Below, one piece after another: positions 8,476 to 64,000 of a stretch of 64,000 nt of DNA. Location of the stretch: contig CP086683.1 in NCBI GenBank assembly GCA_030544685.1, positions 4,898,001 through 4,962,000 of the forward strand. The letters run 5' to 3'. A program made the position numbers and the translations under genes. The first letter of the stretch is position 1. The number at the start of each line of letters is the position of its first letter. This DNA comes from Pseudomonas sp. B21_DOA. Lineage in GTDB: Bacteria > Pseudomonadota > Gammaproteobacteria > Pseudomonadales > Pseudomonadaceae. The notes beneath the pieces were generated by a model, which was given only the letters and a program-made list of their open reading frames with translations, searched no databases and was not told the DNA's origin.

Positions 8476-9590
8476 TTATTTGCTGTTGTTGCTGTATTCG
8501 CTCCAGTTCTTCGCTGCCGAAGCTCCGGTGCCGACAATCGACGCCGACGGCACCAACTGGCTGATGAAACGGTTCCAGCGAGTAACGTTGGCCGGGCCGA
8601 CGTAGACGACATCCTGCGGCCGCACCTGGAAGTGCGAAGCCAGCGCCATGGCGGTCGGCGATTCGGCTTCGAGCTGATAGATCTTCGCCGGCTCGACGTC
8701 GAGATTTTCCACGCCGCGAATCACGTACACCGCGTTACCGTTGGAACTGGTCTGACTCAGGCCACCGACCGAACCGAGCACGTCGGACAGGTTCATGGTT
8801 GCGGTCTTGAAGCTCAGCGCGCGCGGCTGGTTGACTTCGCCCATGACGTAGATGCGCTTGTTGTCGTTGTACGGCAGATACAGCTGATCGCCGCCCTTGA
8901 GGTAGACGTTCTGCAGTTCGGAATCCTGCTGATTGAGCGAGTCGAGATTGAGCGGATAGACCCGCCCGTTGCGCGTCAGCAACAGCCCGGACAAGTCAGC
9001 ATTGTTGGTGTCGATGCCAGCGGAACCGAGGGCCTCGACCACGCTCAGCGGATTGGTCGAAATCGCTTGCGGGCCGGCTTTCGTAACGGCGCCGGTGACC
9101 ACGACTTTCTGGCTGGCGAAGCGCAGCACCGCGACATCGACCTGCGGCTCGGCGATGAATGCCGATAAGCGCTGTTCGATGTCCGCGCGCAGTTGCTGGA
9201 TGGTCCGGCCGGCGGCCTGGACTTCCTTGATGAACGGGTAATACAGCGTGCCATCGGAGCGCACCAGACGGCCGTTGGCATCGATCTGTTGTTGCGCGCC
9301 GGACGGCGCGGTCAGCTCCAGGTGATCCCAGACGGTGATGTACAGCACGTCATTGTTGCCGATGCGATATTCCGCCGGCGTCACCAGCAGCTCCGCCGGC
9401 AGCGACTCACGCTTCTGCGTGGCGCGGTTCATGGCGATCAGCTTCGGGGTGATCGGAATCAGCTCGACCCGACTGCTTTCGCTGGCACCCTGGCGGGTGA
9501 TATCGCTGGTGCTCAGGTACTGGCCGGGGAAAACATGCAACCTTGCAAAGCGAGACTTGCCAACATTAAAAGATAAACACTACGAGTCAT
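8476..9590 (-). CDS. wza: Wza-family outer-membrane polysaccharide export lipoprotein, frameshifted at the signal peptide
   Basis: Forms the outer-membrane export channel for Wzy-dependent polysaccharide. The mature region (about 350 residues) has the PES/poly-export domain (YRIGNNDVLYITVWDHLEL) followed by two SLBB domains (KVVVTGAVTKAG and RIYVMGEVNQPRAL). In its own frame it can start only at a TTG (9540) and lacks a signal peptide. The missing N-terminus is present in another frame: ATG at 9590 gives MTRSVYLLMLASLALQGCMF, a perfect lipoprotein signal with Cys 18. Restoring one G near 9524-9529 joins the frames to read QGCMFSPGQYLSTS. Either a sequencing error or a real null. Lies between an intrinsic terminator and gfcB. 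Confidence 0.87.
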
Positions 9591-9618
9591 AATGGCACTA
9601 CGCTATTCAAGGGCGAAT

Positions 9619-9655
9619 CCAAAAACAAAGTCACCCGACTTGCGTCGGGCGACTC
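9619..9655 (-). terminator. Intrinsic terminator/attenuator between yjbE and wza
   Basis: On the minus strand, GTCGCCCGAC-GCAA-GTCGGGTGAC forms a 10-base stem (one mismatch) with a GNRA-type loop, followed by TTTGTTTTT (forward 9621-9629). It lies about 28 bases after the yjbE stop and before wza. It would let yjbE be transcribed more than the downstream export genes. Confidence 0.82.
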
Positions 9656-9680
9656 TGTACTGCACTAACAAATGTTCCTG

Positions 9681-9917
9681 TTAGTTATGCGTGCCGGTTG
9701 TACCGGTGGTACCCGTCGTACCGGTGGTACCACCGTTGGCACTGCCACCGCTGTTGGACGCCGCTACAGCACTGGCAACCATTGCAGTACTGGCCGCGGG
9801 CGCTTGCGAAGCCGCCACACTGCCACCTACATTGGTTACCGCTGTCAACGGCGCTTCAGCGGCGGCAGCCCAGTTGCTCAACATCGTCAACAGGGCAACT
9901 GCCATCACTTTTTTCAT
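9681..9917 (-). CDS. YjbE/GfcA-like small secreted Thr/Gly/Ala-rich protein
   Basis: A 78-residue protein with a signal peptide (MKKVMAVALLTMLSNWAAAA) and a low-complexity mature part rich in Ala, Ser, Gly and Thr, ending with four Gly-Thr-Thr units coded by 9-base repeats (GGTACCACC type). Composition, size and position as first gene before wza, gfcB, gfcC and yjbH match YjbE of yjbEFGH and GfcA of group 4 capsule operons, whose function is unknown. A ribosome site (AAGGAG, reading leftward) precedes the ATG. The intrinsic terminator after it suggests high, partly independent expression. Naming is by context and composition, not by a resolvable domain. Confidence 0.75.
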   Translation of the reverse strand: MKKVMAVALLTMLSNWAAAAEAPLTAVTNVGGSVAASQAPAASTAMVASAVAASNSGGSANGGTTGTTGTTGTTGTHN

Positions 9918-10124
9918 AACAACTCCTTTCTAACATTCGAACTGTTAAAAAACAGGTCTGTGTCAGAGCTGGTAGCTTTCAAGTCCGCAAAGAGCGCGAA
10001 CAAGATCCGTTGTTCTTTCACAGCGCTACGTAACTGCTAAAGTCGAACGGCAGGTTTATATCTACGGATTTGCAAATGGCATTGCCAGTGTAATTTCCCG
10101 ACGTTATCTAACAACCTGACTGAA

Positions 10125-10146
10125 ACTAACATCGGACTAAATGGCC
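10125..10146 (-). promoter_or_regulatory. TTAGTC element upstream of yjbE (site 2 of 4)
   Basis: Minus strand CCATTTAGTCCGATGTTAG (core forward 10135-10140), about 220 bases upstream of yjbE and reading toward it. It overlaps the end of the galE-yjbE intergenic region just before the galE stop. Shares ATTTAGTCCG with the site upstream of etp. Candidate operator; role inferred. Confidence 0.38.
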
Positions 10147-10147
10147 A

Positions 10148-61628: not shown

Positions 61629-61865
61629 TCATGCCTTGTCAAAAAGGCTCGGTTCGGCTTGCACCAAAGCAAAGCGCGGCACCTGCTCGCCGTCAACCTC
61701 GACCGACTCGACGAACATGCTCAACGGGCGCACCCAAAAGCCGTAATCGCCATACAGGGCTTGGTAAAAGACCACTTCTTCTTCGGTTTCGGAATGCCGC
61801 GCAACACTGAATACACGGTATTGCGGACCTTTGTAATGTTGGTAGAGCCCAGGTTGTATCGGCAT
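61629..61865 (-). CDS. DUF1653 family protein
   Basis: A 78-residue protein starting MPIQPGLYQHYKGPQYRVFS, with the family pattern EVVFYQALYGDYGFWVRPLSMF. DUF1653 members are small cytoplasmic proteins of unknown function. It lies between topA and fadA, all leftward, and seems separately transcribed since a terminator follows fadA. Confidence 0.88.
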   Translation of the reverse strand: MPIQPGLYQHYKGPQYRVFSVARHSETEEEVVFYQALYGDYGFWVRPLSMFVESVEVDGEQVPRFALVQAEPSLFDKA

Positions 61866-61913
61866 GCTTCGGCCCTCACTGAAATCTTTTCAAAAATAAA
61901 TAAAAAACCCAAA

Positions 61914-61941
61914 AACAAAAACCGGGGCACTGGGCCCCGGC
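61914..61941 (-). terminator. Rho-independent terminator after fadA
   Basis: Minus strand CCGGGGC-CCAGT-GCCCCGG followed by TTTTTGTTTTTGG, 18 bases after the fadA stop. Confidence 0.93.
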
Positions 61942-61958
61942 TTCCATCGACGAGACGC

Positions 61959-63134
61959 TTAAACGCGTTCGAAGACGGTGGAGATGCCTTGGCCGAGACC
62001 AATGCACATAGTGGCCACCCCGAAGGTGCCGCTATTCTGCTTCATCACGTTCAACAGGGTGCCGGAAATACGCGCACCGGAGCAACCGAACGGGTGACCC
62101 AGGGCGATCGCGCCGCCGTGCAGGTTAACCTTCTCGTTCATCTTGTCGAGCACTTTCAGATCTTTCAGCACTGGCAAGGCCTGTGCGGCGAAAGCTTCGT
62201 TGAGCTCGAAGAAGTCGATATCGTTGATGCCAAGGCCCGCACGCTTCAGGGCTTTTTGTGTCGCCGGCACTGGACCATAGCCCATGATCGCCGGGTCCAC
62301 ACCCGCCACTGCCATCGAACGGATCACTGCCATAGGCTGGATACCCAGGTCCTGGGCACGCTGCGCCGACATCACGATCATGCACGAAGCACCGTCGGTG
62401 ATCTGCGACGAAGTACCGGCAGTCACGGTGCCGCCCTTCGGATTGAATGCCGGCTTGAGCGCCGCCAGACTTTCCAGGGTGGTTTCCGGACGAATGGTTT
62501 CGTCGTAGTCGTACAGTTTCAGGAAACCATTCTCGTCGTAACCCTGCATCGGGATGATTTCGTCCTTGAACTTGCCTTCCACGGTTGCCTTGTGGGCCAA
62601 CTGGTGGGAACGCACGCCAAAGGCATCCTGTTGCTCGCGGGTGATGCCGTGCATCTTGCCGAGCATTTCAGCGGTCAGGCCCATCATGCCCGAGGCTTTC
62701 GCTGCGTACAGCGACATGTGCGGGTTCGGATCGACACCGTGCATCATGCTCACGTGGCCCATGTGCTCGACGCCGCCGACCACGAACACGTCACCGTTGC
62801 CGGTCATGATCGCTTGCGCAGCGGTGTGCAGCGCGCTCATCGACGAGCCACACAGGCGGCTGACGGTCTGGCCAGCAGAAGTGTGCGGGATCTGGGTCAT
62901 CAGCGACGCCATGCGCGCGATGTTCCAGCCCTGCTCCAGGGTCTGGTTGACGCAGCCCCAGATCACGTCCTCGACTTCCGCCGGGTCGACCTTGCTGTTG
63001 CGTTCCAGCAGTTTGCTTATCAGGTGCGCCGACATGTCTTCAGCGCGGGTGTTGCGGTGCATGCCGCCCTTGGAGCGGCCCATCGGAGTACGACCGAAGT
63101 CGACAATCACGACGTCTCTAGGATTCAAGCTCAT
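61959..63134 (-). CDS. fadA: 3-ketoacyl-CoA thiolase FadA
   Basis: Beta-subunit of the fatty-acid oxidation complex; cleaves 3-ketoacyl-CoA to acetyl-CoA. 391 residues: [20 protein letters not shown], nucleophile Cys 92 region in [14 protein letters not shown], His in [19 protein letters not shown] and the second Cys in [10 protein letters not shown]. 30 bases downstream of fadB, same strand. PsrA, encoded 5.5 kb away, is known to repress fadBA in Pseudomonas. Confidence 0.95.
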
Positions 63135-63163
63135 AAGTTCACTCTCACTCTAGTTGGGGGCGC

Positions 63164-64000
63164 TTAACCGAAGAAGCTCTGGCCGTTTTTGGCCATTTCG
63201 CGCAGCTTCGCGGTCGGGTGGTACAGCGCGCCCAAATCAGCGTACTGGTCAGCCAGGGCAACGAACTCGGCGACACCGATGGAATCGATGTAGCGCAGCG
63301 CACCGCCACGGAATGGAGGAAACCGATACCGTAAACCAGACCCATGTCGGCTTCGGCGGCGGTTTCAACGATGCCGTCTTCCAGGCAACGCACGGTTTCC
63401 AGGCACAGCGGGATCATCATCCAGTTGATGATGTCTTCGTCAGTGACTTCGCGCTGCTCGTAAACGATCGGCTTGAGCACTTCGAGTACCGACGGATCGG
63501 CGACTTTCTTCTGCTTGCCTTTCTTGTCGGCCTCGTAGGCGTAGAAGCCTTTGCCGTTCTTCTGGCCCAGGCGCTTGGCTTCGTACAGCACGTCGATGGC
63601 CGAGCGACGGTCATCCTTCATGCGGTCCGGGAAACCTTCAGCCATCACGTCACGACCGTGGTGACCGGTGTCGATGCCGACCACGTCCATCAGGTACGCA
63701 GGCCCCATCGGCCAGCCGAATTTTTCCATGACTTTGTCGATGCGGACGAAGTCGACACCGGCGCTGACCAGTTTGGCGAAACCGCCGAAGTACGGGAACA
63801 GCACGCGGTTGACCAGGAAGCCCGGGCAGTCATTGACGACAATCGGGTTCTTGCCCATTTTCTTCGCGTAGGCAACGGTGGTGGCGATGGCCAGTTCGCT
63901 GGACTTCTCGCCACGGATCACTTCCACCAGCGGCATCATGTGCACCGGGTTGAAGAAGTGCATGCCGACAAAGTTTTCCGGACGCTTGAGGGCCTTGGCC
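63164..64000 (-). CDS. fadB: Fatty-acid oxidation complex alpha subunit FadB (C-terminal part, frameshifted)
   Basis: Only the C-terminal 280 residues of the enoyl-CoA hydratase / 3-hydroxyacyl-CoA dehydrogenase are in the window. The dehydrogenase catalytic segment [35 protein letters not shown] and [17 protein letters not shown] are seen. The frame breaks at 63317-63318, where one base of a short run is missing; repaired it reads [20 protein letters not shown] and ends AKNGQSFFG at 63164. It continues beyond the right edge. Forms the fadBA operon with fadA. Confidence 0.93.

Follow-up and report, generated by a model that had tools for sequence, protein, structure and literature searches.

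The assembled chromosome of Pseudomonas sp. B21_DOA (GenBank assembly GCA_030544685.1, contig CP086683.1) carries many genes that are broken by the loss of a single base, a pattern that is not biological in origin. We examined a 64,000-nucleotide stretch of this chromosome (positions 4,898,001 to 4,962,000, referred to below as the window), together with neighbouring sequence. An original prediction for the window had listed 13 frame breaks in genes such as topA and fadB, and ascribed them to runs of identical bases being read one base short. We put at about 0.96 the probability that the breaks exist only in the assembly, as errors of long-read homopolymer undercalling, and do not reflect mutations in the organism. 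Undercalling accounts for the fact that one-base indels in the window are all losses, that these become more frequent as runs lengthen and that coding and noncoding DNA do not differ significantly, as well as for the unbroken state of the same genes in relatives and the presence of housekeeping genes among those hit. The process would involve long-read assembly without adequate polishing by accurate reads, in which the chance that a run is called one base short climbs steeply as runs become longer, and in which some single bases, mostly adjoining a short run, would be dropped as well. We infer that the platform was most likely nanopore and that polishing by accurate reads was most likely inadequate.

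Results

One-base indels in B21_DOA are almost exclusively losses

Two close syntenic relatives, Pseudomonas sp. CFBP13508 (G029) and P. siliginis SWRI31 (G030), retain the gene order of the window at approximately 94-96% identity throughout long segments, which places the strain near P. siliginis. The window was aligned with both in 69 chunks (63,625 aligned columns), adding outgroups where available (G031 to G034, giving partial cover at approximately 77-94% identity by segment), and each private indel was assigned to whichever of the three genomes stands alone. B21_DOA has 31 private one-base deletions and no one-base insertions, compared with five deletions and five insertions in G029, and two and three respectively in G030. 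Twenty of the 31 lie inside frames called in either relative and 11 outside; approximately six fall in poorly aligned spots. By our tally, 17 shorten a run of at least three bases, the remainder being single bases, pairs or ambiguous alignments. Private substitutions polarised by the outgroups number 724 in B21_DOA, 439 in G029 and 455 in G030, that is, a branch approximately 1.6 times longer, which is too little to account for the excess of deletions. This excess is far beyond chance.

The same asymmetry extends beyond the window. A wider alignment, without an outgroup, compared the window and the adjacent 400 kb of chromosome with the corresponding stretches of G029 and G030; 264 of 281 chunks were kept, representing 248 of 464 kb, and 17 were dropped for mismatches of size or length. 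Across these 248 kb there are 140 private one-base deletions and 16 insertions in B21_DOA, against 19 and 20 in G029 and seven and ten in G030, so that nearly all of its one-base indels are losses while its insertions resemble those of the relatives in number. Where flanks match and the other two genomes agree, runs are shorter in B21_DOA 87 times and longer seven times (G029, nine and ten; G030, six and seven). Within genes called in both relatives, one-base deletions number 76 in B21_DOA, one in G029 and none in G030. The loss rate is approximately 0.57 per kb, and deletions occur in 16 of the 17 20-kb bins with aligned bases along the sampled 464-kb stretch, the empty bin having only 1.8 kb aligned. 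If this sample of the 5.94-Mb chromosome is representative, the 140 deletions less background extrapolate to approximately 3,000 such losses chromosome-wide. The given completeness of this single-contig genome is 95.32; eight further genomes of the genus that consist of one contig all stand at 100 (rounded), and one from another family at 99.

Losses increase with run length

In coding DNA of the 248-kb alignment, the probability of loss climbs with run length from three to seven bases, at 4/4341, 8/701, 11/140, 8/28 and 4/5 respectively, and no coding run of at least three bases is shortened in either G029 or G030. Long runs are also scarce in B21_DOA when counted without any alignment: G/C runs of at least six bases number five in 464 kb, whereas G029 has 30 (500 kb counted) and G030 has 20 (345 kb counted), and A/T runs of at least eight bases number one, 11 and six in the same stretches.

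A motif search around the 76 of 140 one-base deletions with clean flanks was inspected for the 12 best words at each of three word lengths; none of these resembled a methylation motif, and all derive from runs. Separately, an AAGAA-type context is over-represented among 22 lost single bases, with three instances against 0.07 expected (248-kb alignment of B21_DOA with G029 and G030), and the loss of a single base is commonest where short runs of one base stand on either side of it (5/2,632). Judged from their context, the AAGAA-type losses would fit the miscalling of near-homopolymers.

Losses do not differ significantly between coding and noncoding DNA

Selection would be expected to remove genuine frameshifts from genes. 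With run length matched, loss in coding and noncoding DNA does not differ significantly (odds ratio 0.74, Cochran-Mantel-Haenszel p = 0.41), in a comparison of limited power; noncoding DNA also carries real indels. When a model of run content is calibrated on all runs, it gives an expectation of 86 losses for the 172 genes described below, where 64 one-base deletions are seen. Coding DNA is therefore somewhat under-hit, which we attribute, without proof, to real intergenic indels and a rough calibration.

Patterns of substitution are similar among the three genomes. Codon position 3 receives 0.753 of the private substitutions in B21_DOA and 0.754 and 0.762 of those in the relatives, and the ratio of transitions to transversions (Ts/Tv) is 2.06 against 2.17 and 2.29; nothing here points to a mutator, to relaxed selection or to a large number of substitution errors.

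Housekeeping genes are among those hit

Genes were called with an in-house script based on open reading frames and GC3 (G+C at codon position 3) rather than with a gene finder, and the tally took in the 172 genes that are 300 bp or longer and have cover of at least 95%. A private frameshifting indel is carried by 50 of these in B21_DOA, by seven in G029 and by one in G030. One-base deletions are the only such changes in 47 of the 50; of the others, one has an insertion of 17 bases at its end and the rest have a two-base deletion in addition. When breaks fewer than 30 codons from the start or fewer than 15 from the stop are set aside, 38 affected genes remain in B21_DOA, three in G029 and one in G030. 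A separate test of reading frame by tblastn found 39 of 166 genes split in B21_DOA and seven of 167 in G030. The description of the error rate as modest was therefore too mild.

Twenty of the 50 genes were scanned for names, and 13 matched NCBIfam at the cut-offs used. The named genes include clpA, icd, aceA, nuoF, tamA and topA, each with an interior break, and clpX, in which the break falls at codon 400 of 438. Hits near the start, at codon 5 of an ftsK-type gene and codon 34 of purB, could be due solely to which start codon was chosen, and purB is open in a single frame from residue 33 onward. Both topA and nuoF are split into two pieces that differ in frame or offset, and the genome holds no second close copy of either, topA having only a 30%-identical relative elsewhere.

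The listed breaks and their genes

All 13 frame breaks that had been listed for the window were recovered among the 31 private deletions, each as a one-base gap against the close relatives, and tblastn searches with G029 proteins displayed the frame changes in the listed genes directly, including fadB. The positions mostly hold, with slight corrections for GT4, from 19810-19822 to about 19806, and for apbE, from 39854-39858 to about 39873. Ten or eleven of the losses had been placed in runs, where our tally gives nine of 13 in runs of at least three bases; the remaining four, in GT4, etp, apbE and at one transporter site, align as single bases. This division depends on gap placement, since some relatives hold a run at those four sites. 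One gene had been labelled a glycoside hydrolase, for which we found no confirmation, as its first 270 residues have no NCBIfam match at E <= 0.001 and the relative's whole protein has no Pfam match at E <= 1e-6.

Run lengths were compared with close Pseudomonas genomes, as had been proposed, and the breaks are absent from the relatives. Reading frames were followed by tblastn of G029 proteins against 18 stretches from relatives, requiring at least 90% gene cover and counting G029, the source of the queries, among the relatives (Table 1). All 12 genes tested have a single frame in every covering relative (three to 15 per gene), so no split frame is conserved. In the window, 11 of the 12 were split by this coverage-limited test; fadB, which extends past the window end, fell under the cut. 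Marginal losses at gene ends comprise GT4 codon 3, the last codon of apbE, codon 23 of an MlaA-family lipoprotein gene, and codon 28 of the longest frame of a GAPDH gene, ahead of the part that matches the family.

Table 1. Broken genes and intact control genes of the window, with the number of covering relatives in which each broken gene has one frame.
Gene	Coordinates	Strand	State in B21_DOA	One frame in relatives
wza-type polysaccharide export	8476..9590	-	break near 9526, run; one base short of both close relatives	5/5
GT4 glycosyltransferase	18798..19878	-	break near 19806, aligned as single base; further loss near 19870-19879 (codon 3)	6/6
wzc-type tyrosine kinase / chain-length	19919..22140	-	break near 20637, run	6/6
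etp-type low-molecular-weight phosphotyrosine phosphatase	22180..22619	-	break near 22483, single base	6/6
318-aa gene (labelled glycoside hydrolase in the original prediction; no family match)	22909..23864	+	break near 23636, run	4/4
rssB/hsbR response regulator	25602..26784	-	breaks near 25652 and 26015, both runs	5/5
MlaA-family lipoprotein (not among the listed breaks)	27130..27920	-	single-base loss near 27852, codon 23; may precede the true start	3/3
apbE	39235..40279	-	break near 39873, single base; run loss at last codon, near 39239	5/5
MFS metabolite/H+ symporter	40354..41650	+	breaks near 40950 (single base) and 41247 (run)	8/8
sulA	57271..57776	+	break near 57312, run	14/14
topA	58882..61514	-	break near 61146, codon about 123, run	15/15
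fadB, cut by window end	63164..64000	-	break near 63318, run	10/10
mfd	43651..47100	+	intact, control	
SNF2-type helicase	47689..50379	+	intact, control	
second SNF2-type helicase	50528..53821	-	intact, control	

Other features of the window

The two SNF2-type genes are convergent, inverted paralogues, sharing approximately 74% DNA identity across 1.8 kb, and the L024 and L035 alignments span both without interruption. From wza to a YjbH-family exopolysaccharide gene there is a row of four minus-strand genes (4965-9590), which probably belongs to an exopolysaccharide region extending to about 22.6 kb. Two MacB/FtsX-type permease genes, partly similar in DNA, occupy 32934-36183 on the minus strand with a frame at 34242-34976 between them, and a CusS-type sensor kinase gene lies nearby at 31465-32814. 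Multi-base indels between relatives are abundant in intergenic DNA at about 4500-4960, 14115-14266 and 25050-25067; one of them concerns a 28-base palindrome-like unit present in the relatives and absent from B21_DOA, and the stretches resemble repetitive extragenic palindromic (REP) elements. Searches of the window for Rfam families at gathering scores and for tRNA genes each returned no matches.

Discussion

Several observations weigh against undercalling as the source of the breaks. The evidence comes from the assembly and its relatives. Not every loss is homopolymeric, since the 87 losses in the run counts include 22 single bases and three from runs of two, and the shortest lengths depart from the order seen in longer runs, with coding losses at 14 of 101,272 single bases and at none of 26,717 pairs. 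Runs of four bases are lost less often in coding (8/701) than in noncoding DNA (7/158), which is the direction that real selection would give, although the test stratified by run length is not significant. At length five, G/C runs are lost at 10/40 and A/T runs at 3/156, the opposite of the bias reported for a nanopore assembly of P. syringae. The tblastn test of frame has a background of its own, as G030 shows seven of 167 genes in two frames. Private substitutions in the 248 kb sum to 7,496 in B21_DOA, 4,970 in G029 and 4,850 in G030, approximately 1.5 times as many as in either relative, which indicates a longer branch, yet not one long enough to explain the losses. Lastly, mfd and both SNF2-type genes are whole, as had been pointed out, where 3.3 losses would be expected from the mean rate (P = 0.037) or 3.5 from run content; their intactness is mild luck.

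Real gene decay, through genuine single-base deletions under relaxed selection, is in our judgement highly improbable. The breaks are private to this genome, as decay would have it, and four exopolysaccharide-type genes (wza, GT4, wzc and etp) are among those hit, but topA, nuoF, clpA and icd are broken as well, the window has no one-base insertion, and coding DNA is not significantly spared. Nor is relaxed selection seen downstream of the breaks: the codon-position-3 share of private substitutions there is 0.762 in B21_DOA, and the corresponding regions of the relatives give 0.750 and 0.754. A lower downstream share in broken than in whole genes (0.754 against 0.804, p = 0.0004) was considered as a sign of relaxed selection and rejected as evidence of decay; the same set of genes is equally low in both relatives, and the difference is thus an effect of gene class.

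We give even less credence to a mutator lineage, deficient in mismatch repair and prone to slippage at homopolymers. Losses do gather in runs and increase with run length, as slippage predicts, but slippage should insert bases too, and shortened runs outnumber lengthened ones by 87 to seven. Transitions are raised in mismatch-repair-deficient mutators; Ts/Tv is not raised here, the codon-position-3 shares of the three genomes are alike, and a live lineage is not expected with topA broken and no other close copy present. Programmed frameshifting or phase variation at some sites is equally implausible: several sites are runs that would permit slippage, but the affected genes are functionally unrelated and the 12 that were tested keep one frame in all covering relatives. 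We would likewise set almost no store by a living lineage in which strongly deletion-biased slippage has truly shortened runs chromosome-wide, topA included, and which copes by transcriptional slippage or frameshifting.

With the breaks attributed to undercalling, the earlier advice that these genes should not be treated as pseudogenes is upheld, and the breaks provide no evidence that exopolysaccharide, SOS or fatty-acid functions have been lost. Between roughly a fifth and three tenths of the genes examined in the sampled part of the assembly are affected, and gene-content or pan-genome analyses that use this assembly will consequently be biased. The case also indicates that undercalling can largely be diagnosed without reads, from two close relatives.

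The pattern has published counterparts. In the Kastor paper, a nanopore-only assembly of P. syringae 508 contained 2900 errors, of which 69% were indels, most of these false deletions; the deletions were associated with runs two to eight bases long, four to five being the commonest lengths, and 1234 genes (23.3%) were scored as pseudogenes, 1101 of them by frameshift only (PMC12007338). The damage in B21_DOA is close to this in kind and size, with 38 to 50 of 172 genes affected and approximately 3,000 losses by extrapolation. It differs in that losses from A/T runs dominate in P. syringae 508, whereas G/C runs of length five are lost more here, and in that substitution errors were reported there and none are evident here (PMC12007338). 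The Homopolish paper describes uncorrected systematic nanopore errors as mainly homopolymer indels, which shift frames and inflate counts of pseudogenes (PMC8011154), and the homopolymer indels breaking reading frames in B21_DOA correspond to that description. In the raw drafts discussed there, insertions dominate and deletions grow after read-based polishing (PMC8011154), whereas losses dominate in B21_DOA; the errors in that work were measured against truth genomes (PMC8011154), while the truth here is inferred from relatives.

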